Virus record (IMG/VR): IMGVR_UViG_3300042691_008014
Location: 1 to 64,000 of that record
Source of the DNA: a virus
Length of the DNA stretch: 64,000 nucleotides
Strand: one strand, 5' to 3'
In this document: one piece after another, positions 26,301 to 61,772 of the stretch
How positions within the stretch are numbered: position 1 is the stretch's first letter
How the letters are laid out: each line of letters begins with the position of its first letter
Notes under the pieces: model-generated
Database searches by the model: none
What the model saw: only the letters and a program-made list of their open reading frames with translations
Told to the model about the DNA's origin: nothing
Position numbers and translations under genes: made by a program

Positions 26301-27914
26301 TTAAAGAGTTTCTAAACCATCTACGAGAATCTTACCGTAGAATTCTGGTCTTACGATTTTCTTTGCGTAACGAGTCATAACACCTCTACGTGGAGTAAAG
26401 TTGGTTGGGTCGTACACTAAAGGAGTCATAATCAATGGTACATAAGGTGCGTAAACTGCTCCAGTCTCGAAGAAGTTAGAACCTTTGAAACCTAACAAGA
26501 TTACGTTTTCAGTCATGTAAGGGTTTTTGTAAACATCGTATCTGTTAGAGATTGAACCGATGTTAGTTACACCTGCTGCGAAAGTCAACGCATCTTTACC
26601 AGGGTTTGCAGAGAATCCGTTCATTGATTCCAAAATTGTAGCTACGTTTGGAGAAACAACCAAGAAGTTTGCTCCACCACGCATAGTCAATTGGTGAATT
26701 TTGTTAGATACTTTCTGCAATTTGATACCCAAAGTTTGGAACCAAGTATTCTTTTGGTAAGCCGAAGCAGCTGCTGCGTTAGAATCAATAGCGAATCCAG
26801 CACCAGTCCACTCATATCCTACTTTAGATGACCAGTATTCAGTTGTGAATGCGTTCTGCTGCAACATCTCAAGGATTTCCAAATCAATCTCCAAAGAGAT
26901 GTATTCAGATAACATTTGAGTCAATTCAGCTTCTGCATCTACAGAGTGATATGCGTTCAAATCTTGCGCCAATTCAGGAGTCCAAATTGCCTTCAACTTA
27001 CGTGTTTTAGCAACGATAGGCTCTGATTTCAATTCCAATTCAATTTCTGGAATTGCCAAATCTGTTCCTCTATCTTCGAAATCACCACGAGAAATATCAG
27101 TAGGTTGTACGTGATATGCCAATGATACACCAACAGTTGTAAGGTTAGATAAACCAGTTACAGATGCAACGAATTCAACATTTGAACCATTTTTAGTTGT
27201 GTATTGTGGATAGTATCCTGTTACAGAACCTGTTAATAAAGTTGGTTCGAAAGCTCTAACACCATTGAAATCAGCATCAGCTGGTAAAGCTACAACGATT
27301 TTCTTCAATGTGTTACCTGCGAATGATGCAGAAACTGAACCAGAAGATAAATCATAATCGATATCAGCTAAAGATGCAGATGCAAAAGTAGCAGTGATAG
27401 CAGCAGTAGCGTTGTTGATTGTATAACCAAAACGTCCTGCACCATAAAGACCTCCTTCTGGAGATTGAGTTGAACCTAGTTTGTTACCAGCTGGAGATAA
27501 AGAATCTTTACCGAAAGTACCACTGTTACCAAACAAAGATGAACCTGTGAAATTTGGATTACCCGCTGGGTTAGTACCATATTTGAAGTCCATGTAGAAA
27601 ATAAGACCTGATGGTAAGTTCATTGGTTGAACTGAAACGAATTCTTTCGCTGCAATAGAACCGAAGATACGTCTTACCAAAGGAAGAGCCACACCAGCCC
27701 ACTCTTCAGAACCTGAAGAAGTACCAGTACGAGTTGCCTCATCCAATAATTGTTTAGCCTGGTTTTCTAACATTACTGCCATACCATGCTTTGTAGTTTC
27801 AGAACCTACTCCTTCAAGTAGACCTGTTCTTTCCCATTTGCCTTTCAAACCTCTGGTTTGCTCAAGCATCACGCTCTGTGGGTTCGCGCCGCTCATTAAT
27901 TTTTTAATGTTCAT
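26301..27914 (-). CDS. 23: Major capsid protein, gp23-like
   Basis: A 537-residue HK97-fold shell protein. Residues 40-115 (TTKHGMAVMLENQAKQLLDE, EWAGVALPLVRRIFG, VQPMNLPSGLIFYMDFKYGT) and the C-terminal part (DAEAELTQMLSEYISLEIDL, FGSN-like GFKGSNFFETGAVYAPYVPL, FTPRRGVMTRYAKKIVRPEF) are the conserved gp23 signature. Length matches T4 gp23 (521). The first about 50 residues probably include the segment removed by the gp21 protease; MLEN at about 48-51 is one possible (L/I)xE site. It is followed by a strong terminator and preceded by the scaffold gene. Confidence 0.97.
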   Translation of the reverse strand: MNIKKLMSGANPQSVMLEQTRGLKGKWERTGLLEGVGSETTKHGMAVMLENQAKQLLDEATRTGTSSGSEEWAGVALPLVRRIFGSIAAKEFVSVQPMNLPSGLIFYMDFKYGTNPAGNPNFTGSSLFGNSGTFGKDSLSPAGNKLGSTQSPEGGLYGAGRFGYTINNATAAITATFASASLADIDYDLSSGSVSASFAGNTLKKIVVALPADADFNGVRAFEPTLLTGSVTGYYPQYTTKNGSNVEFVASVTGLSNLTTVGVSLAYHVQPTDISRGDFEDRGTDLAIPEIELELKSEPIVAKTRKLKAIWTPELAQDLNAYHSVDAEAELTQMLSEYISLEIDLEILEMLQQNAFTTEYWSSKVGYEWTGAGFAIDSNAAAASAYQKNTWFQTLGIKLQKVSNKIHQLTMRGGANFLVVSPNVATILESMNGFSANPGKDALTFAAGVTNIGSISNRYDVYKNPYMTENVILLGFKGSNFFETGAVYAPYVPLIMTPLVYDPTNFTPRRGVMTRYAKKIVRPEFYGKILVDGLETL

Positions 27915-27943: not shown

Positions 27944-29197
27944 TTATTTAATAATACCTGCTAATTTCTTAAATCTGTTAGCAAAATTAGCTGATTCATT
28001 GATTACCGCTTTAGATTGAGCAGGTTTTGTAGATTTAACTGCTTTACTAGCGATACCTTCTGAAATAGCCTTTTTAGTTAATTTGTTAGAAGATGAAGTA
28101 TATTTGAAATTCTCTGCTAATGTAGAGAACACTAATTTAACCTCTCTTACTGATTTTGTTCTATCCAAAGTTTCAATCACTTTCACTTTTTGTTCGTTAG
28201 TCATGTTGTGAGCTCTGAATAATTTGTTTGCAAACAATAATTTGGCGTTCAATAAGTTCACCTCATTAATAGTTTTTTGAAGAGTTCTGATAGTTCGGTA
28301 CGCCTCATTCAAGTCTTTCTTTAGAGATTCTGCCTTTGGCTCTTCTTCACTTGAACCATACTCATCTTCCATTTCTCTCAAGATTTCTGCTAAATCAACC
28401 GTATCTTCATCTTCTTCTTCACCTTCGTTAGTTACCACTACTTTAGGGTCTTCACCTTTATCAGTACCTGCTTCTGAACCATCTGCTAAATTTTCGTTAG
28501 CTGGGAAAGGGTTTTCTTCGTATTCTTCTTCTTCACCTTCCATAGCTGGCTCTTCTTCATCACCTAACTGTGCTTCTAATTCTCTGATGATAGCTTCCAA
28601 TCCCATTTCGTCTTCTTCTTCACCCTCCATTGGGTCTTCTCCAAAAGAATCTTCTTCACCACCAGCCATTGCCATTGGGTCTTCTTCTTCTGTTGCTGCG
28701 AAAGGGTCACCTTCTTCTTCACCACCGAATTCATCTGCACCACCAAATTCGTCTTCACCTTCTAATTCTGCTAATCTTGCTTTTAATTCAGCAATTTCTG
28801 CATCCTTATCAGATTCTTCTTCACCACCGAAGTCGAATTCATCTTCTTCGTTAATATCTGCTACTTTTTTGTAGTCAGTACCTGCTGCCTCTGGCTTACC
28901 ACTATCTTTCTTTACACCTACTGATAAATCAGTAATTGCATCGTAAGATGGATTTGCTCCAGGGGTTTCAGGGTATCCAGCATCTGATTTAGACCCGATA
29001 CCATCTGAACTTAATTCCTCGTCTACTTGTTCTGCATCATCTTCCATTTCTGCTTCTGCTCTCATCTTTTGAGATAAGATAGATTGAAGTCGTGGAGTAA
29101 ATGCCTCTTCAAGCGCAAGTTTTGCGTTTGCTAAAGCGGTTTCTTTAACGGCTTTGGCATCAGCGATTGCTTCTTTCAATAATTTTGAATTTGCCAT
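27944..29197 (-). CDS. 22: Prohead scaffold protein, gp22-like
   Basis: A 417-residue protein that would form the prohead core and be degraded by gp21. The N-terminus (MANSKLLKEAIADAKAVKET) is helical. Residues 50-300 are extremely Glu/Asp-rich with EEE/DEEE blocks and several LAELEGE, LEAQLGDEEE type (L)xE cleavage options. The C-terminal helices (NLLNAKLLFANKLFRAHNMT, KVKVIETLDRTKSVREVKLV) are the conserved part of scaffold proteins in aquatic T4-like phages. T4 gp22 is 269 residues, so the acidic region is enlarged. The gene lies directly before gp23, as in T4. Ser-rich frames on the opposite strand are only its mirror. Confidence 0.9.
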   Translation of the reverse strand: MANSKLLKEAIADAKAVKETALANAKLALEEAFTPRLQSILSQKMRAEAEMEDDAEQVDEELSSDGIGSKSDAGYPETPGANPSYDAITDLSVGVKKDSGKPEAAGTDYKKVADINEEDEFDFGGEEESDKDAEIAELKARLAELEGEDEFGGADEFGGEEEGDPFAATEEEDPMAMAGGEEDSFGEDPMEGEEEDEMGLEAIIRELEAQLGDEEEPAMEGEEEEYEENPFPANENLADGSEAGTDKGEDPKVVVTNEGEEEDEDTVDLAEILREMEDEYGSSEEEPKAESLKKDLNEAYRTIRTLQKTINEVNLLNAKLLFANKLFRAHNMTNEQKVKVIETLDRTKSVREVKLVFSTLAENFKYTSSSNKLTKKAISEGIASKAVKSTKPAQSKAVINESANFANRFKKLAGIIK

Positions 29198-29315
29198 TTT
29201 TGTTGTATGTTGATTGTGAAGTTATTTCTAAAAAACTCCAATAGGATTATGCTGATTGTTCGGTCACATCTTATATGAAAGAGTATTCGTTAATCAACTG
29301 TACTTTAATTAAAAA

Positions 29316-29334
29316 ATCCTATATGAGATAGGAT
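29316..29334 (-). terminator. Intrinsic terminator between bS21 and scaffold genes
   Basis: 7-bp stem ATCCTAT/ATAGGAT with a 5-base loop, followed by about six U on the coding strand. The remaining 119 bases up to the scaffold start form a long leader in which I see no other clear signal. Confidence 0.7.
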
Positions 29335-29341
29335 ATTCGAA

Positions 29342-29350
29342 AATAAATAT
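29342..29350 (-). promoter_or_regulatory. Variant late promoter motif (ATATTTATT)
   Basis: Eight of nine bases match the motif family, upstream of the hairpin at 29316-29334 and 144 bases before the scaffold ATG. It is weak evidence on its own in AT-rich DNA. Confidence 0.25.
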
Positions 29351-29367
29351 ATAAATTTTTTAGAAAA

Positions 29368-29556
29368 CTAAAGAAAACCCAAATCTTTTTGATTCTTTCT
29401 TATAGCTTTTTCTTTTTCTAATCTATTTTTAACGGATGGTTTAACAAATGTCTGCCGTTCTCTTAACTGCTCTACTTGTTTAATGTTCTGAACTTTTCTC
29501 TTATATTGTTTCAGAGCTAGTTCTATATTACCGTTTTTAATATCAATTATAATCAT
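29368..29556 (-). CDS. rpsU: Phage-encoded ribosomal protein bS21
   Basis: A 62-residue basic protein, MIIIDIKNGNIELALKQYKR onward. The segment ALKQYKRK (14-21), the LRERQTFVKPSV stretch (31-42) and the total length match bacterial bS21, a small-subunit protein next to the 3' end of 16S rRNA. It is closest in feel to Bacteroidota bS21 (RYKRK, KPSV). Residue 53 is Arg where, from memory, Bacteroidota bS21 has a Tyr used to hold the anti-Shine-Dalgarno tail. It lies five bases after the previous gene, inside the head operon, so it would be made late. It would swap into or compete with host ribosomes. No Shine-Dalgarno precedes its ATG. Confidence 0.85.
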   Translation of the reverse strand: MIIIDIKNGNIELALKQYKRKVQNIKQVEQLRERQTFVKPSVKNRLEKEKAIRKNQKDLGFL

Positions 29557-29561
29557 AATTA

Positions 29562-29933
29562 TTATTGATGATTTACTAATTTGTATTTTGTTCTATATAA
29601 CAGAGATACAACCGTATCAATATCGTTTTGTAACCAACTATCTTTTAATTTAGGATTTTGTCTTAATCTAGCTACCATATTACATAAAGTATCAAAGTAT
29701 TTAATGATATTTTTAATATCATTATTTTTATCCAATGTTCCAATGCCAGATAATTGAATTAATCCTTCTTTACCCTGATATGTTTCTACTAACCCATCAA
29801 TCAATCCACCAATTGAATCATAGTAATCTCCCAATGCCAAATGAGCAGAATGAGAACCAATTCCTTTAACTCCTAAATGAAATGAGTGAGCTTGGGTTCT
29901 ACTTTGTAATAATAATGATGCTAATTCTTCCAT
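29562..29933 (-). CDS. Small helical protein, Dps/ferritin-like (DUF5856-type)
   Basis: A 123-residue all-helical protein. The first helix pair (LLLQSRTQAHSFHLGVKGIG, HSAHLALGDYYDSIGGLIDG, then LVETYQGKEG) has the H...H...H-x2-L-x3-YY pattern of Dps-derived small proteins common in T4-like aquatic phages. Whether metal ligands are complete cannot be judged. It is six bases from both neighbours in the head operon. A virion-internal or host-targeting role is unknown; the family call is by pattern only. Confidence 0.5.
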   Translation of the reverse strand: MEELASLLLQSRTQAHSFHLGVKGIGSHSAHLALGDYYDSIGGLIDGLVETYQGKEGLIQLSGIGTLDKNNDIKNIIKYFDTLCNMVARLRQNPKLKDSWLQNDIDTVVSLLYRTKYKLVNHQ

Positions 29934-31300: not shown

Positions 31301-31891
31301 TTAATTTAATTCTATTATAATTTCTCTCATTAAATCTTGTGATTTACACCACTTACCACATTCTTCTGCCATTTTAGCCCACTGCTTTGATTCATTCATT
31401 GGTGCCATAAATGCTCCATGTGTGGATGGATTAGAAACGAAATCCCAACCAACCAATTCGAAATCTTCCTGAACCATTACGGTCCCATCTTTTAATTCCT
31501 TTACTGAACCTAATCCTCGTGATGAAATACCTAAACGGATATTATTTTTTAATAATTCTTTTAAGATATTACCAGATGGAGTTGAAAGAATTTCTACTAC
31601 ACCACATACATCATCACCTTCCCAATAAATTTCTCTAATGTTGTGGGATACATTTTTTAAGTTGATAACAGGAGAATCTGGATGGTCCAACTCACCTAGC
31701 GCTCTACGTTCTTTAATAAGTTGTTTGTATTTTGCACATTCTCTTTCTAAAATTTCTCTAGGATAGCGTCTACCATTTTGATTAGCAGCACCTGCTCTTT
31801 GTAAGATGCCCTTTACCAAATATGTTCCATTTTCTTCTTGTTGAAGTTTTGCTTCAAACAAATGGGTTTCTATCAATAATCCTTTATTCAT
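31301..31891 (-). CDS. 21: Prohead core protease, gp21-like (peptidase S80)
   Basis: A 196-residue serine protease that would cleave scaffold, capsid and internal proteins during head maturation. Residues 25-72 (YLVKGILQRAGAANQNGRRY, ALGELDHPDS) include the catalytic-type His70. Residues 119-130 (RLGISSRGLGSV) include the nucleophile-type Ser at 123/124. The end of the domain (FELVGWDFVSNPSTHGAFMA) is also conserved. Length is close to T4 gp21 (212). In T4 its sites are (L/I)xE; many proteins in this window have (I/L/V)NE. It is one base from the 111-residue gene upstream. Confidence 0.93.
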   Translation of the reverse strand: MNKGLLIETHLFEAKLQQEENGTYLVKGILQRAGAANQNGRRYPREILERECAKYKQLIKERRALGELDHPDSPVINLKNVSHNIREIYWEGDDVCGVVEILSTPSGNILKELLKNNIRLGISSRGLGSVKELKDGTVMVQEDFELVGWDFVSNPSTHGAFMAPMNESKQWAKMAEECGKWCKSQDLMREIIIELN

Positions 31892-35860: not shown

Positions 35861-37603
35861 TTACTTTTTGGTTAAATCTTCTGTCAAAATAGTTTTTTTA
35901 TTACCATCCATATCCTTAAAAACTTCAAAATATGAACTCTTTCTCGGTTTGTATGGAACAGAACCTTCTTTTGCTTTAAGAGTTTTTATTCCTAATGGGT
36001 CTCTACCTTCAGGATGGTCATCATGCCCATATCTAACAGGGTCTTTTGGTCTACCAACCTGTCCATCTAATTCAAGTTTTAACTTATTCAACTCCTCTTC
36101 AACATTAGTTGGTCCACCTTCAGTTCCAGTTTCTTTTGCTGGGTCTACACCTTGTGTTTCAATTGAAGTTAAACGGAACATTTGTTTAGTATCATCTAAT
36201 ACCTGCAATGTTAATTCATCCTGCTCATCTTTTGCCATCTTCATTACGGATTCATACATCCATTCTTTGGAGAACATCTTTGTTTGTTGCATTTGTTGAA
36301 TTAGGGCTACTTTTGAAGTGTATAGTTCAACCTGCTCCTGCTCATAAATTCTAGATGGAACTGTTAATTCCAATGTAAAGTCTGTTAAACGGTCATCGTT
36401 AATACCTTGTGCGTATAAATGAACGATTGCAATTTTAGTTAATTCGGAAATCAATACTCTCTGAACTCTTTCAATTGTTTTGGCAAAACGAATATCCATT
36501 GATGCCAATGTTGCTTTACCATTAGTATCTTCCTCATAACCCAAATATGCTTTTGGAATTTTAAGTGCAGCCATCAACTTCCCTTTTAAGTAATTGATGT
36601 CATCAATCATATTGTACTCTAAACCTTTTAGGGTATCAATTGAAGTTCCATTATCACTACCTCGAACTGGCATATAATAATCTTCAATAAGATTCATCAT
36701 ATTGTACTTTAAGTTGTACTCACCCGTTCTTTCATCAACAAATGGAACTTTCTTTGATGCGTTGATGATTTTTTGCATGTAGTTATCCACTTCGTTTGGT
36801 GGGATATTACCAACATCCACTTTAAAAATTCTCTTTTCAGGAGCTCTCATTACTCTGTGGATTAACATTGCATCTTCCATCAACATTAATTGTTTCCAAA
36901 CTCTTCTAGCTCCTTCAACCATAGATTTTCCATAAGGTAAGAAGTTTGAATCTGAATTTAAACGGAAGTGAGCAATCTCATAGTTTTCAAATTCCTTTTT
37001 AGTAGTTTGACCTACTGCCATATATGGGTTTTGATATGGGGCATATACGAATTTAACTCTTTGTGGATTTTCAGGATCAAATCCCTCTACTCTACTCATT
37101 TCGTATGATGATAATGGCATTACGTTTATAATTCCCAATTCATCTGCAATTTCTAATTCTAAAAAGAAATCACCATATTTTACCAAGTTTCGTGTCCAAG
37201 GCCATAAGTTGAACTCAATGTTAAGAATATCGTAAAATAAGTTTTCTAATATTTGTTTGATGTTATCATCATCGTGATGAATTTTTAAAATACTACCATG
37301 TTCGTTTTTAGCGGTACATTCATCTGCATATACATCCAATGCGGATGATAAAATGGGGTCCATATCCATTGAATCGTAATCTCTAAACAAATCGATACGA
37401 ACTTGTTGGTATGCCATTGCAGATTCCACCCCACCTACACCGTAGTTACTTACTTTGAGTTTCATATAACGGTCTACAAGGTTAGTTGTCATATTCTGAT
37501 ACTCATCAGTATCGACTATTTTAACTCCTTTTTCCGTTTTTCTTACTATGGTATTTGTTGAAAATAATTTCTGTAACCTACCGAATAATGTTTTATCTGC
37601 CAT
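35861..37603 (-). CDS. 20: Portal protein, gp20-like
   Basis: A 580-residue protein forming the dodecameric DNA entry ring at one capsid vertex. Strong family segments are MDMDPILSSALDVYADECTA, ILNIEFNLWPWTRNLVKYGD, FLPYGKSMVEGARRVWKQL, LMEDAMLIHRVMRAPEKRIF, MPVRGSDNGTSIDTLKG and DINYLKGKLMAALKIPKAYL. T4 gp20 has 524 residues; the extra length is a Pro/Lys-rich C-terminus (EGGPTNVEEELNKL to the end). It is placed after the terminase and before the core and protease genes, as in T4. Confidence 0.95.
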   Translation of the reverse strand: MADKTLFGRLQKLFSTNTIVRKTEKGVKIVDTDEYQNMTTNLVDRYMKLKVSNYGVGGVESAMAYQQVRIDLFRDYDSMDMDPILSSALDVYADECTAKNEHGSILKIHHDDDNIKQILENLFYDILNIEFNLWPWTRNLVKYGDFFLELEIADELGIINVMPLSSYEMSRVEGFDPENPQRVKFVYAPYQNPYMAVGQTTKKEFENYEIAHFRLNSDSNFLPYGKSMVEGARRVWKQLMLMEDAMLIHRVMRAPEKRIFKVDVGNIPPNEVDNYMQKIINASKKVPFVDERTGEYNLKYNMMNLIEDYYMPVRGSDNGTSIDTLKGLEYNMIDDINYLKGKLMAALKIPKAYLGYEEDTNGKATLASMDIRFAKTIERVQRVLISELTKIAIVHLYAQGINDDRLTDFTLELTVPSRIYEQEQVELYTSKVALIQQMQQTKMFSKEWMYESVMKMAKDEQDELTLQVLDDTKQMFRLTSIETQGVDPAKETGTEGGPTNVEEELNKLKLELDGQVGRPKDPVRYGHDDHPEGRDPLGIKTLKAKEGSVPYKPRKSSYFEVFKDMDGNKKTILTEDLTKK

Positions 37604-38198: not shown

Positions 38199-39806
38199 TT
38201 AACGAAGTAACCAAGTTAGGTTTTCTACATCACCTTTACCTACTTCCATTTCGTATGGATTCTTACCAGACCAACCAGTGGAGTACACACCACTAAACTG
38301 ATTTATTTGAGTTGAGTTCAACATACTCTTTGTTAAATCAATACCTTCTTGTCTCAAACGAAGTGCAGTGTTACGAACCCACAACCCAATTGCCAATGCC
38401 ATTACCAAGTCATCATTGTACCCCTTCATTGCTTCTGCTCTACCACCATGCCATATAAAGGTAAACATCTCATCTATTAAACGATTTGAACGTATTAGAA
38501 TATCTTTATCACTCATATATGTATCCAATGCTGAAATGATAAGAGGACGAGTTTTAGATGTTGTGGAGAATCCGGCAACCATTTGTTTTTCATCTCTGTA
38601 AAACTTATTACTCATTTGTTTTTCAACATCAATATATTTCAAATCGTTACTCATATAAAACAGATTTGGATACCCTCTATCTATGATTTGTTGAATACAT
38701 GCCCAACCTACGTTTGAATTTTCTACAACTAATAAAGCGTTGTTATATTCAGTTGCTAATGAAGTTAAAAAATTACCAAAATCTTTTGTTTCAATTTTAC
38801 CTCTGTATTCTGCTACTTGACAACAATCTTCTATATCAATTACCTGTGCAGTAGAATAATCGGCTCCATCTCCTCTCGCAACGTCAGCACATACCATGTA
38901 CTGCTTGTTATAGTTTGGGTACTCCCATATCCATAAGTTATTATCAAACCCTCTCTTCTCAACTGGGTCCATCACATAGGTATCTTTGTACCAAGTTAAT
39001 AATGCGGGGTCAATTACGGTATCACCTGAACCAATAAAGTCACAATCACATTCTTGTGCTGCACCTTTAACCCCCAAAATACGAGTCTGTTCATCTCTCC
39101 AAGCCTGGTTTCTTTCAGGGTGTACTGTCCAATGTAGGTTAATACAATTGAAACCATTTGCACCACTTTCACCTTCTACCCACATTTTATGGAACCAGTT
39201 ACCAACACCGTTTGGTGTAGATAATACTATTGCGTTACCACCTGTTGATAGGGTTGATTGTGCCGATAACCAAATTTCATCGATATCTCTAATGAATGCC
39301 GCTTCATCCACTACTAAAAGTGATAGAGCTTCCGAACGACCTGCATCTGGTGAAGATGCAATTGCCTTTACCTGTGAACCATTCTTTAATTTAAGTGATA
39401 GTTTGTTATCTTCAGCCGCTGCAGTTCCACCATCTCTCAACCATACTGGCAATAAATCGTGCATAACCCTAACCTTTTCTACAAGGTTTTTGGCTACCGT
39501 TACTTTTGTTGCAATAACCAATGCGTTAAAGTCCTGATTGAATATCATTTTCCAAAGAATAAATCCCGCAGAAAGTGTTGATAAACCTAACTGACGAGAT
39601 TTTAGAATGATATTAAAACGATGGTCTTTAAAATCAGTTAAACACTCCTCTTGAAAAGGATAAAGGTGAAAGGGAATTTTCCCTCTCACCGGATGTTGAA
39701 TAACACAATACTTCTTCATAAAGTAAATGGGGTCAGCCGCACATTTACGATATTCTTCAGAAATTATTTCTTTTAAAGTTTTTTTTGGTTGTCCTTGAAC
39801 TCCCAT
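38199..39806 (-). CDS. 17: Terminase large subunit, gp17-like (packaging ATPase and nuclease)
   Basis: A 535-residue motor protein. The ATPase has an adenine-motif region (YPFQEECL, 49-56) and a deviant Walker A KSRQLGLST (69-77), in which the usual GK lysine is Leu and a Lys sits at the loop start. It also has SSPDAGRSEALSLLVVDEAA with the Walker B Asp-Glu, and the coupling motif VLSTPNG. The C-terminal RNase H-like nuclease shows the acidic residues in VCADVARGDGADYSTAQVI, LLVVENSNVG and KGYNDDLVMALAIGLW. T4 gp17 is 610 residues. It is one base from the upstream envelope-type protein. Confidence 0.95.
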   Translation of the reverse strand: MGVQGQPKKTLKEIISEEYRKCAADPIYFMKKYCVIQHPVRGKIPFHLYPFQEECLTDFKDHRFNIILKSRQLGLSTLSAGFILWKMIFNQDFNALVIATKVTVAKNLVEKVRVMHDLLPVWLRDGGTAAAEDNKLSLKLKNGSQVKAIASSPDAGRSEALSLLVVDEAAFIRDIDEIWLSAQSTLSTGGNAIVLSTPNGVGNWFHKMWVEGESGANGFNCINLHWTVHPERNQAWRDEQTRILGVKGAAQECDCDFIGSGDTVIDPALLTWYKDTYVMDPVEKRGFDNNLWIWEYPNYNKQYMVCADVARGDGADYSTAQVIDIEDCCQVAEYRGKIETKDFGNFLTSLATEYNNALLVVENSNVGWACIQQIIDRGYPNLFYMSNDLKYIDVEKQMSNKFYRDEKQMVAGFSTTSKTRPLIISALDTYMSDKDILIRSNRLIDEMFTFIWHGGRAEAMKGYNDDLVMALAIGLWVRNTALRLRQEGIDLTKSMLNSTQINQFSGVYSTGWSGKNPYEMEVGKGDVENLTWLLR

Positions 39807-55834: not shown

Positions 55835-56265
55835 TATAAATAAACTTTAAATGAAGGTATACCAAGTGAATTCCACAAATCAATTATTTCTTGTTTATCA
55901 TCAAATGCACAAAACACATCATCTTTGATAAAATCATTGTACATTTTTCGTTTTAATTCTACATCTTTAATATAATGATTTTCTTCACCTCTCATAAACA
56001 ATCCATCATATTTAATCCCATATATTTCTAACCAATCCTGTGTAGAATTAAGTATCATTCGTGGTCTACTAGTTAGTATATAAATCCCATAATCATTATA
56101 TAGGTGATTTATAATATCAATCATAGGTGCGTTTGGTTTATCTGATATTACATTTTTATAATCATATAAAACATCCCAATCGATACTACCATCAGATTTA
56201 GTTGCAAGTGCATACCTCTTTTTATTTATTGAAAGAGTATTATCTATATCTACTATAACAATCAT
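55834..56265 (-). CDS. HAD-superfamily phosphatase
   Basis: A 143-residue protein with the HAD nucleophile motif VDIDNTL (Asp6, Asp8), motif II YILTSRP, a Lys in ELKRKMYND (motif III) and the acidic pair in CAFDDKQE (motif IV). It is close in size to the 3'-phosphatase part of phage polynucleotide kinase. In this setting it could instead act on a sugar phosphate. The start overlaps the radical SAM gene's stop by four bases (ATGA type). Confidence 0.75.
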   Translation of the reverse strand: MIVIVDIDNTLSINKKRYALATKSDGSIDWDVLYDYKNVISDKPNAPMIDIINHLYNDYGIYILTSRPRMILNSTQDWLEIYGIKYDGLFMRGEENHYIKDVELKRKMYNDFIKDDVFCAFDDKQEIIDLWNSLGIPSFKVYL

Positions 56266-57461
56266 TTTCGTAAACCTTGTTCTTTATAAGTTACTGGTAT
56301 TTTAATACCAGTATTACACCCATTACAATTATCACAAAATGTGATGTATCCAAGTTCGGTAAATCCCAAATCAAACTTAATTAAATCTTTGGGGTATACT
56401 TCTGATAAATTTACATAATCATTTTCGTTTGGTGAAAACAATTTAGTTAGAACTGCGCTTGTATTAAGGTGACAATAATAAAACTTGCCATCATTCAATC
56501 CTCTAAATGGAGCAGTGCAACTATCAAAGTGATTTATGAGTTCTTCTTCACTCATATTATTTTTAATTCTCAAATCACCAAAATCATACCACTCGATATT
56601 ATTCCTTACATAGTGATTGATATTTTTCTCTTGGTAAGTTCCTAAAACTCTATCAACTTTACTTTTTAATTTTTCTAATTTATTAGAGTAATTACTTACA
56701 CTTAAAATAACATTATTATTTTTTAACACTTCTAGTATTTCTTCTTTTGGGAGGACTGTACCATTAGTGGTTATTATAAACTTATCAATCTTATCTGAAT
56801 ACTTTTCTAAAATGTATTCGATTACATCTTTGATATTTGGGTGTAAAAACGGCTCTCCACCAACTAAATGGAAAATACTTACATAATCAACAAGATTAAA
56901 ATATAAGTCAATATCATTTAAGATAGTTTGAGTATCTCTGTGTTTTGGTAGTTCGTAATGTGGTATAAACATATTACAAAACGAACACGCCAAATTACAT
57001 TTTTCAGTCACCAATACATCTGTTTGAAATATGTGAACCTTTTGTTTGTGTATAAATGGCCAAATAGATGCAATGTTTTTATACCAAGTATATTTTACAT
57101 TTAGTTTATCTAAATATTCTTTATAGTATTGTCTATACTCATCTGATGTGATAATTACATTTTCACCAGTTGGTTCAAAGTTATCTATATGAACTAATTT
57201 TAAATTCTCACGAGTGTTGACGAGGTTTTTTGATTGATGATAAAATGAACTAATTTCGTTTACATTCAATATAGTTGATTCATCTTTAACATCGTGGTCA
57301 ACTATGTATTTTATTTTTAAAACATTATTACCCAACAAATAATCTACACTTCTAATAAATTGGACACACTCTTTACTTGCACCGAATAGAACATATTCGG
57401 TTTCAGTATCCCATTCTTGGATAAATTTCTCAAAATTATGTAGATTAGGATTATATTTCAT
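56262..57461 (-). CDS. Radical SAM enzyme with N-terminal Rossmann-like domain
   Basis: A 399-residue protein. Residues 22-60 (EYVLFGASKECVQFIRSVDY, LKIKYIVDHD) look like a small nucleotide-binding domain. The cluster motif is Cys155, Cys159 and Cys162 (EKCNLACSFC), then HLVGGEPFLHP. The C-terminus has CDNCNGC and a further CTAPF cysteine, which may bind an auxiliary cluster. This layout occurs in radical SAM proteins of sugar and surface-structure loci. Coupled with the HAD phosphatase, and three bases from the E1-alpha-like gene. Confidence 0.8.
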   Translation of the reverse strand: MKYNPNLHNFEKFIQEWDTETEYVLFGASKECVQFIRSVDYLLGNNVLKIKYIVDHDVKDESTILNVNEISSFYHQSKNLVNTRENLKLVHIDNFEPTGENVIITSDEYRQYYKEYLDKLNVKYTWYKNIASIWPFIHKQKVHIFQTDVLVTEKCNLACSFCNMFIPHYELPKHRDTQTILNDIDLYFNLVDYVSIFHLVGGEPFLHPNIKDVIEYILEKYSDKIDKFIITTNGTVLPKEEILEVLKNNNVILSVSNYSNKLEKLKSKVDRVLGTYQEKNINHYVRNNIEWYDFGDLRIKNNMSEEELINHFDSCTAPFRGLNDGKFYYCHLNTSAVLTKLFSPNENDYVNLSEVYPKDLIKFDLGFTELGYITFCDNCNGCNTGIKIPVTYKEQGLRK

Positions 57462-59598: not shown

Positions 59599-60360
59599 TT
59601 AAAAATAAATGTTCTTTTCTATGTAAAATTGTGGATAGTTTCCACTAAAACTAACATCCCATACTTTATATCTATTGTAATGGTTAAAATCACATAAAAA
59701 TGCAAAATTATTTCTATATGGATAATCGTAATTTAATTTTCGTAAATCATTAAAAACTATATGTGAATACTGTTTTTCATAATTATCAATAAAATCTTGA
59801 ATTTCTTCAATTTTTAATTTTTTGTTTAATACAAACGCCATTTCAAATTCAAAATCTCCAATATGTTGATGTTCCTCTGGTCCAATCATACTACCACATC
59901 CGAACCAATAGAAAGAATTTTCGTATTTCACTTTTTCACCATCTTCAAATTCAATAATTCCTACCAACTTTCCATTTTTATAGCATTTAATATTTCTTTC
60001 CAAAAAATGGTCACAAATCATAGCGTACTCATTGAATTCATTAGTTTCTTCTGGTAATAATCCGGTAAAAATTTGTTTTGAATACATTTCTGTTTTACCA
60101 TCTATTTCTTTTGAAAACCAATATGTAAATGCAATTGAAACAATTCCCAAATTATCTTTATAAGCAGAAATACCAGAATGCATTCCATTTCTGGCAATAG
60201 CAAATGATTCTTTATTTTGAGCTACAGTATCAGGAAATATTTTAAACTTTAAGAATAAAGAAAAATCTTCATCCATATGTTTATCAATTCTAGATGATAC
60301 GGAGTATCTACTTTCCGGCAAAACGAAAAATATATTATCTTTGTTTACTCTTAAACTCAT
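59599..60360 (-). CDS. Stand-alone LamG/concanavalin-like protein
   Basis: About 253 residues from the ATG at 60360, which overlaps the upstream TGA as ATGA; an earlier ATG would overlap by 22 bases. Residues about 5-190 form a jelly-roll pattern: FFVLPESRYSVSSRIDKHMD, FSLFLKFKIFPD, HFLERNIKCYKNGKLVGIIE and FEFEMAFVLNKKLKIEEIQD. A C-terminal 55-residue extension (FNDLRKLNYDYPYRNNFAFL) is unknown. Its LamG part resembles that inserted in the neighbouring galactosyltransferases, so it may bind the same glycan. Confidence 0.6.
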   Translation of the reverse strand: MSLRVNKDNIFFVLPESRYSVSSRIDKHMDEDFSLFLKFKIFPDTVAQNKESFAIARNGMHSGISAYKDNLGIVSIAFTYWFSKEIDGKTEMYSKQIFTGLLPEETNEFNEYAMICDHFLERNIKCYKNGKLVGIIEFEDGEKVKYENSFYWFGCGSMIGPEEHQHIGDFEFEMAFVLNKKLKIEEIQDFIDNYEKQYSHIVFNDLRKLNYDYPYRNNFAFLCDFNHYNRYKVWDVSFSGNYPQFYIEKNIYF

Positions 60361-61772
60361 ATTTTTATTGTTGAACAAAAGTTATAAAATTCTTCTAATT
60401 CAGGAAATGTTTTACAAAAATCAGTTCCTCTACGTTTATCGTGGTTTGAAAAATATTGATAAAAACTATATCTATTTTTCATTTGTTGAGTCGCATCCTG
60501 TGGAGAAATCATCCAATCATAAATTCTTTTTACTTTTTGAACCTCAACATCGGAGTAACCAATGTGTTTTGGGTCAAATGATGGAGCTGCGTAGTAAGTG
60601 ATTAATTTAGCCTGGTCAGTTATATATTTAGCATAATCAAATGGAAGTACTTGGACAGTTTGATGTAAAGGGTATCGTAGATATGATGAATCTAAAAACA
60701 CTGCAGAATTCCAATATCTATCAGTGGATGCGTATACATCTTTTAATGTGTAAATATTATGAATTAATTGTTCATAATTAAAAACACTTAACGCATTATA
60801 TGTCGACATGAATGTTATAATAGTTCTTGGGCATTTTGTAAGAATTTTATTTACATTATCCCAAAATTTATTAAATTCTAATCCAGTACGAATGTATTCT
60901 GCTTGCTCTCCCCATGTATCAACCGATGTAAATATGACAATTTCTTTTGCTCTACCTTCATCTTCTATTTTTTGTATCTTTTCGATTAATTTATCTATCA
61001 ACTTATCTGGAACTCCCAAATTAGAATTAATAGCCAGTTTCAATTCAGTATTTGGATTTGGATGTTCTATGATATAATCAAGTACTCCCCAAGTATCTTT
61101 ACTCATAAGAGGTTCTCCGCCTGTGATTCTAAATGTATGAAGGTCTCTATACAAATCAGGCCACCATTTCCAAAATGCTTCTACATATGGATTATGTTCT
61201 TTATTTGGAATTGGTAATTTATCTTCGTTTTTCATCCAATCAACGGAATTAAAATTATCCAAAGTTGGGTATGCACCATGCTTTTCAATTTCTTCCATCC
61301 ACGCCGAACTATACGCAGGACCACAATATGAACATTTGAAATTACACGCATTACTAAATGCAACTTCTACATATTTTGGATTAAAATCATCTCTCCAATC
61401 AGATTGAATAATGTCATTGATAAATGGATAAGACCAACTTTCACCAGATTTAAATATTCTATCCGAAAATCTATCCGAATTATCTTCTACATTCCAACAA
61501 TAATCACATTCAGAAGGTCTTGCTCCCTGTAACATTTCCTTTCTACGAAGTTTCTTATATCTCGTATTATGAAGTGCTGATGGGTTTCTAGCAATTTCAG
61601 TTTCTGAAATTTTATGTGTTTTGGGGTGGTGACATGAATGATTATGTCCACTTTGTAATTGTAGTGTAACTTGCGTCCATTTGGCAGCACACATACCAGG
61701 ACCAACCACATTTAACTCGTCTTTAACGCGTAAATAAATTGGATTTTCACTATAAGTTTTATCTTCTGCCAT
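60357..61772 (-). CDS. Radical SAM enzyme, twitch-domain type
   Basis: A 471-residue protein. The cluster motif is Cys143, Cys147 and Cys150 (NACNFKCSYCGP), then TFRITGGEPLMS. The upstream region has cysteines at 28, 47, 89 and 92 (HNHSCHHPKTH; SECDYCW) and resembles the short SPASM-like twitch arrangement, here placed before the barrel, as in phage radical SAM proteins. Later segments FTSVDTWGEQAEYIRTGLEF and VFLDSSYLRYPLHQTVQVLP are conserved in these. The substrate may be a protein or sugar of the virion glycan pathway. Confidence 0.85.
   Translation of the reverse strand: MAEDKTYSENPIYLRVKDELNVVGPGMCAAKWTQVTLQLQSGHNHSCHHPKTHKISETEIARNPSALHNTRYKKLRRKEMLQGARPSECDYCWNVEDNSDRFSDRIFKSGESWSYPFINDIIQSDWRDDFNPKYVEVAFSNACNFKCSYCGPAYSSAWMEEIEKHGAYPTLDNFNSVDWMKNEDKLPIPNKEHNPYVEAFWKWWPDLYRDLHTFRITGGEPLMSKDTWGVLDYIIEHPNPNTELKLAINSNLGVPDKLIDKLIEKIQKIEDEGRAKEIVIFTSVDTWGEQAEYIRTGLEFNKFWDNVNKILTKCPRTIITFMSTYNALSVFNYEQLIHNIYTLKDVYASTDRYWNSAVFLDSSYLRYPLHQTVQVLPFDYAKYITDQAKLITYYAAPSFDPKHIGYSDVEVQKVKRIYDWMISPQDATQQMKNRYSFYQYFSNHDKRRGTDFCKTFPELEEFYNFCSTIKI

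Follow-up and report, generated by a model that had tools for sequence, protein, structure and literature searches.

In Flavobacterium johnsoniae, Tyr54 of the ribosomal protein bS21 forms a stack with A1534 and seems to guide the 16S rRNA tail into a pocket, according to the sections of PMC9976891 cited here. Those sections also report that the Y54A change raises the output of strong Shine-Dalgarno (SD) reporters by 70% in vivo and 3-fold in vitro, that the yield of Y54A ribosomes from an SD-less template is similar to wild type, and that their initiation-complex formation on SD-less mRNA is somewhat less efficient. A-rich, SD-less start regions are described there as a signature of the Bacteroidia, and the SD before host rpsU (pairing energy used, -13) as part of SD-based autoregulation. 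Among phages, the cited part of Chen et al. (2022; PMC9723584) gives an aromatic residue at this site in 61 of 61 bS21 proteins of Bacteroidetes phages, 54 of them Tyr. One residue ties F. johnsoniae bS21 to the hiding of the anti-SD sequence, and mutants and reporters exist already. Here we describe a phage lineage whose bS21 has Arg at this site.

A bS21 gene in the head-gene block

The window, by which we mean the whole stretch of DNA analysed, covers 64,000 nucleotides (positions 1 to 64,000) of the IMG/VR virus record IMGVR_UViG_3300042691_008014, which is 105,600 bases (105.6 kb) long. Its rpsU-type ORF encodes a protein that scores 50 bits against Pfam PF01165 (E 2.4e-13; curated cut-off 27 bits) and matches PHROG 21469, 'ribosomal protein S21' (3.2e-7). 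A phmmer search of the PDB retrieved ribosome bS21 chains, with 9i5v the best (E 2.1e-9) and 7jil_z of F. johnsoniae at E 2.4e-9. These matches bear out the sequence-only reading, which had called the 62-residue product a clear bS21. The domain is nearly complete, more than a fragment, and lacks one residue near the N terminus (G-NI versus GENI). The predicted model has helices at residues 11-35 and 40-59 (mean pLDDT 85, pTM 0.44), and a fold search with it matched PDB bS21 chains weakly (best E 0.36); the PDB matches are ribosome chains, the first 11 of which fit bS21 or its mitochondrial form, all at E of at least 0.36. Judged from its sequence, the protein is a genuine bS21 of the Bacteroidia-phage type. 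It is ordinary as a phage bS21, and what appears unusual is the loss of the pocket aromatic across the whole lineage. Relatives were found by tblastn in only 7 of 50,697 phage records, a search that missed the distant bS21 of Microcystis phage Mel-JY01.

The gene sits in a block of terminase, portal, prohead protease and capsid genes that share one strand (Table 1). A tail sheath gene at the start of the window identifies a myovirus. The phage belongs to a lineage of T4-like myoviruses whose nearest cultured relatives are Flavobacterium phage immuto and Mel-JY01 (terminase and capsid 54% for immuto, 52% and 54% for Mel-JY01). A PHROG search with the scaffold-like protein gave no match. It is the place of bS21 between the prohead protease gene and the scaffold-like and major head genes that suggests late expression; its strand is uninformative on timing because 89 of the 92 ORFs of the record share it.

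Two radical SAM domain proteins are encoded outside the head-gene block, at 56262-57461 and 60357-61772. The sequence TATATTTAT occurs 15 times on the coding strand of the record and once on the other, with 9 occurrences in a reversed-sequence control; by eye, it stands several times just 5' of start codons and is perhaps a late promoter element.

Table 1 Features of the bS21 locus (window coordinates unless a contig is named)
Feature	Position	Strand	Basis or remark
Phage rpsU (bS21, 62 aa)	29368..29556	-	PF01165, PHROG 21469, PDB bS21 chains; ATG at 29556, stop at 29368-29370
Codon 53, AGA (Arg), site of F. johnsoniae Tyr54	29398..29400	-	Sequence and alignments
bS21 start region, no SD	29557..29580	-	ATG 5 nt past the stop of the upstream gene
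Upstream neighbour, 123 aa	29562..29933	-	PHROG 858, starvation-inducible transcriptional regulator
Structured leader RNA, four helices, before scaffold-like gene	29216..29339	-	Covariance model R1, 126.8 bits
Scaffold-like gene, 417 aa, next after bS21	27944..29197	-	Name inferred from place before capsid gene
Major head protein	26301..27914	-	PHROG 138, E 1.3e-72; 54% to Flavobacterium phage immuto
Prohead (head maturation) protease	31301..31891	-	PHROG 207, E 1.3e-53
Portal protein	35861..37603	-	PHROG 213, E 4.8e-66
Terminase large subunit	38199..39806	-	PHROG 2, E 3.4e-46; 54% to immuto
Leader copies or possible relatives	L286:7747-7850; L060:7004-7071; L051:3338-3409; L062:1633-1719		R1 model

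The pocket site across the lineage and beyond

The sequence-only reading had placed Arg53 of the window protein at the key Tyr, and two kinds of alignment agree with it. Tyr54 stands opposite Arg53 in the phmmer alignment with 9i5v (the 7jil alignment ends one residue short of the site), and Arg53 falls in the Tyr54 column of MAFFT alignments with an F. johnsoniae reference. A cell sequence nearly identical to that reference (L244) carries Tyr at site 54. The aromatic residue that marks the tail-sequestering bS21 of Bacteroidia is absent from the window protein, and the Bacteroidia-type N-terminal region is present, its nearest rows outside the lineage in the 46-column tree described below being Tyr-type phages. 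A conserved Tyr at another position, which would have spoken against the proposal, was looked for: there is none after residue 18 of the window protein, and the lineage has no fixed relocated site. An aromatic does occur near the end of 18 of the first 20 lineage proteins, but its distance varies and it is absent in L152 and L073, and we rejected relocation. A sequencing or assembly slip at codon 53 was also discarded, as Arg is found in separate contigs and with synonymous codons.

All 14 close IMG/VR loci (proteins 87-100% identical) have Arg. Among the 73 lineage contigs besides the window record, which were gathered by a profile scan and two further scans and assigned from bS21 similarity together with the leader RNA, the site is Arg in 70, Gln in one (L073), His in one (L327) and Tyr in one (L330). 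The replacement of Tyr by Arg holds lineage-wide, yet the His of L327 and the Tyr of L330 show that Arg is not indispensable. Purifying selection acts on the first 20 distinct lineage proteins (median dN 0.16, dS 1.06, ratio 0.13; 149 of 190 pairs usable), and the ratio rules out random decay of a useless gene. Their Arg codons at the site are AGA in 16 and CGA in 3, a synonymous change. They share the motif [RQ]-K-N (19 Arg, 1 Gln) at a place where Y-x-Q is frequent in the proteins of hosts and of other phages. Lys54 and Asn55 do not vary among these 20; members found later differ after the Arg, for example RKEK.

In a bS21 tree with few columns and unsettled bootstrap, made when the Tyr, His and further Arg members had yet to be found, the first 20 lineage proteins form one branch (100/99) beside Tyr-type Bacteroidia phages (82/79). 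Arg-type cell sequences stand apart from the lineage and group with Mel-JY01, L051, L060 and L061 (99/91). When the columns after residue 46 are left out, the lineage is still one branch (99/92) and its nearest outsiders are Tyr-type phages; this 46-column tree likewise predates the Tyr, His and further Arg members. Those members are placed by a tree of the protease, the scaffold-like protein and gene 30390, which has no bS21 in it, 66 rows, a quick method and long outgroup branches: the Tyr and His members come together (SH-aLRT 99) inside the Arg rows, and Gln lies elsewhere. This tree shows three changes at the site, making Arg the norm of the lineage, with the aromatic most simply regained once. 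The Arg itself may either have arisen from Tyr or be a survival from an older bS21 in this position, where Mel-JY01 too has a bS21 with Arg (by eye).

An alignment of 91 rows (89 distinct sequences and 2 typed references) has Y at the site in 66, R in 19, H in 2, M in 2, Q in 1 and K in 1. Every R and the Q fall inside the lineage; M and K belong to other bS21 types. With 152 rows, Arg appears outside the lineage in L375, L409 and L412. L409, together with L410, is Bacteroidia-like and has Arg-Lys-Asn, and L409 is without the leader; L375 and L412 are of other bS21 types, further rows of which have Val, Ile, Met, Lys, Ser, Leu or Ala. The scans behind both alignments were partly aimed at the lineage, and these counts are no measure of prevalence. 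The Arg lineage limits the claim of a universal aromatic in Bacteroidetes-phage bS21 made in the cited part of PMC9723584. We found no publication on an Arg-type phage bS21 in the open-licence PMC literature, whose coverage of subscription journals is thin.

Among the cell bS21 matches listed, the 72 loci read have Arg (49), Tyr (22) or His (1). They were drawn from the whole phylum and comprise the 30 best-scoring, L195 and L196, and 40 hand-picked among the matches listed; L195 and L196 repeat the MAG loci L055 and L056, and at least one genome entered the count twice. All 23 cell proteins that we judged to be of Bacteroidia type, a label given here from the N-terminal sequence, have Tyr or His, and two of these are again L055 and L056. 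The His-type bS21 of a viral contig (L016) is almost identical to that of a cell genome (L242), with which it pairs in the tree (100/97); the gene may have been transferred recently, or a host contig may have entered the virus set.

Start regions and the leader RNA

That the phage genes lack SDs had also been proposed from the sequence, and the whole record bears it out. An SD-like word of at least 4 bases precedes 6 of the 92 ORFs in the 105.6-kb record (6.5%, against 4.4% in shuffles), and AGGAGG plus spacing occurs 4 times, against 5 in the reversed control. We rejected an enrichment in strong SDs, the differences (6.5% versus 4.4%, and 5% versus 2% in shuffles) being within noise for about 90 genes. 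A 366-aa gene at 71590-72690 of the record has AGGAGGAGGAGG before its ATG and was given no weight, as this repeat encodes the Gly-rich end of the preceding gene; in the five records searched, the repeat recurs only in G001 and G002, both with identical bS21. The anti-SD pairing energy of 35 lineage bS21 start regions has a median of +0.6 kcal/mol. In cells, AAAGGAGGT precedes rpsU in both MAG genes examined, and 12 of 26 rpsU sequences of all types with a placeable start have an SD core.

Frequencies of A at -13, -12, -6 and -3 are 0.65, 0.61, 0.55 and 0.59 in the window start regions (background 0.44). The corresponding values are 0.64, 0.71, 0.46 and 0.51 in immuto (background 0.44, with -6 near background) and 0.54, 0.36, 0.31 and 0.44 in Mel-JY01 (background 0.44). 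Based on 20-kb stretches, 8 Tyr-type cell genomes pooled repeat the window pattern with 0.48, 0.55, 0.43 and 0.55 (background 0.36), and 12 Arg-type genomes pooled give 0.28, 0.30, 0.25 and 0.24 (background 0.29), the latter being mostly richer in G+C and including one at 33% G+C that has A at -3 (15 genes). Strong SD pairing is found in 3% of Tyr-type cell starts (shuffles 2%), 24% of Arg-type (17%) and 28% of those of Mel-JY01 (11%). Based on start-region statistics and relatives, the host is most likely a member of the Bacteroidia. Given this start signature and the aromatic in Bacteroidia-type cell bS21, the host group's own bS21 most likely keeps the aromatic.

Between bS21 and the scaffold-like gene lies a gap of 170-195 nt in the lineage (about 174-187 in most), which contains the structured leader; the whole gap at 29198-29367 has a fold z of -3.35. 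Our own covariance model, R1, was built from 17 sequences that include L002, a near copy of the window. In this set 64 of 124 core positions are invariant, with scaffold-like proteins down to 60% identical to that of the window. Seven pairs covary with 18 changed cells; none of 500 shuffles reached either count, and versions that were slid scored 0 or 1. R1 matches once per phage in five of five lineage records (matches above E 0.4 ignored) and in 72 of 73 lineage contigs (the earlier 35 and 37 of 38 added later, some copies clipped by contig ends); the one contig without a match, L322, stops before the site.

With default filters, Mel-JY01 is the sole R1 match among other viral loci (E 0.013). 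With filters off in five relatives, the best four are the scaffold leaders of Mel-JY01 (34.8 bits, E 0.0006), L060 (24.2 bits, E 0.05), LR756508 (22.3 bits, E 0.10) and L062 (22.2 bits, E 0.11); that of immuto ranks seventh of 24 (19.0 bits, E 0.38). The weaker matches are credible only because they agree in place. We rejected the idea that the leader was made as a partner of this bS21, as weakly matching leaders stand in relatives with other bS21 types and perhaps in immuto, which has no bS21 at this place. Related leaders beside another bS21 type make it probable that the leader predates the present type, and we read it as an old cis-acting element of the scaffold-capsid mRNA. It is so far undescribed. 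Rfam gave nothing near the gathering score (best E 0.31), and a literature search found no published description of such a leader. A search of 198 cell genomes with strict filters and no positive control did not find it, a result of little weight.

Possible roles and comparison with known systems

The literature makes incorporation of the phage protein into host ribosomes plausible. It would take the bS21 site of the host 30S subunit, either replacing host bS21 or on bS21-deficient subunits, and, like host bS21, would support initiation on phage mRNAs that are SD-less and A-rich. Without an aromatic stack on A1534, the 16S 3' tail would be held less firmly and the anti-SD partly exposed. Synthesis of the phage protein should escape the SD autoregulation of host rpsU, since its start has no SD and its ATG follows the upstream stop so closely. 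The published Y54A data lead us to expect both that SD-less initiation is supported and that the tail is somewhat loosened. The joint reading, a phage bS21 on the Bacteroidia 30S with SD-less initiation kept and the anti-SD partly exposed, is one we hold tentatively, at close to even confidence. The further proposal of the sequence-only reading, that the protein changes which mRNAs are translated late in infection, is weakly suggested: since the phage genes are SD-poor, loss of the Tyr would not obviously favour their translation, and because Y54A ribosomes are somewhat less efficient at forming initiation complexes on SD-less mRNA, a similar loss would cost the phage.

Arginine can stack on bases and could do so on A1534, and the pocket could then keep working. 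It is possible, if doubtful, that Arg stacks on A1534 or forms a salt bridge to it or to the tail backbone, that the anti-SD stays hidden and that the gene only supplies bS21. Beyond the Bacteroidia type, Arg is the residue seen most often at the site (49 of the 72 cell bS21 read among the matches listed), a hidden anti-SD costs nothing to SD-poor phage genes, and the first 20 proteins all keep Lys54 and Asn55, as might be expected of a contact motif, although later members vary. However, the tail appears to be redirected by Tyr54, and SD reporters yield more with Y54A (cited sections of PMC9976891), and Bacteroidia-type phage bS21 outside the lineage is aromatic with few exceptions (61 of 61 in the cited part of PMC9723584; L409 with L410 is one exception), which suggests that Arg is not equivalent. 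That the residue mirrors Arg-type bS21 of non-Bacteroidia Bacteroidota hosts is very unlikely. The phylum draw is rich in Arg-type cell sequences, and KAIRRNQ of L197 is close to the phage KAIRKNQ, but the 12 Arg-type genomes pooled lack the A-rich start signature of the window and some use SDs, the phage N-terminal region groups with Tyr-type phages, and one of the two nearest cultured relatives infects Flavobacterium. A role off the ribosome or as a decoy, for example in upsetting host rpsU control, is hardly credible for a bS21 domain conserved nearly end to end.

We also consider it unlikely that an exposed anti-SD favours SD-bearing late phage mRNAs, the scaffold-capsid mRNA first. What speaks for it is that, of the 29 distinct start regions of the scaffold-like gene in 66 of the 73 lineage contigs, 17 contain AAGGAG (7) or AAGGA (10), and that this gene directly follows bS21 with a conserved leader RNA. 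Yet the SD is missing in the other 12, including those of the window subclade, of L073 and of the members with Tyr or His, and its energies of about -5 to -8 kcal/mol by a simple calculation are weaker than the -13 of host rpsU (cited sections of PMC9976891). Relatives with SD-rich genes (L060, L062 and Mel-JY01) have an SD before the scaffold-like gene too, so that it may be a relic, and with no clear SD excess in the window start regions strong retargeting is not expected. The bolder version, in which the lineage evolved a bS21 that unmasks the anti-SD and so creates a second class of ribosomes reading the neighbouring scaffold-capsid mRNA, which has the conserved leader and in many members an SD-like start, better than host mRNAs, is likewise improbable. 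For existing assays, the natural Arg of the lineage and its Tyr and His members are matched natural alleles, and through the Arg-type protein nature offers a way to test how phages might change host ribosomes.

Host bS21 of F. johnsoniae (PDB 7JIL) is like the phage protein in family, length and N-terminal signature and can be aligned with it over residues 1-52. The phage protein differs by Arg for Tyr54, Asn for Gln two residues on and one N-terminal deletion, and its gene, unlike that of the host, has no SD. The phages of Chen et al. (2022) are likewise myoviral with bS21 amid terminase, portal, protease and capsid genes, whereas their bS21 has the aromatic in 61 of 61 and lies on the opposite strand, against Arg and the head-gene strand in the window (cited part of PMC9723584). 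By eye, the central signature KVxxxKQ is common to the window bS21 and many of the Tyr-type phages that we collected. The head-gene lineage is different: the window protease is 33-45% identical to those of the Tyr-type phages matched, whose bS21 is on the opposite strand, and 51-61% identical to those of immuto, Mel-JY01 and L060.

Flavobacterium phage immuto (vB_FspM_immuto, Immutovirus, MW353175) has a similar gene order and A-rich, SD-poor start regions. We found no bS21 between its protease and scaffold-like genes, the rest of the genome having been partly viewed. Where bS21 stands in the window, positions 125469-125625 of MW353175 hold a terminator-like hairpin and a 30-aa ORF, in an otherwise collinear arrangement. 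The gene is missing from this head block through either loss or never having been gained. Mel-JY01 (PP395634) has bS21 in the same place and orientation, with Arg at the site (by eye) and a related leader RNA. Its bS21 is nevertheless of another type, which groups with Arg-type cells, and its start regions are SD-rich, unlike those of the window.
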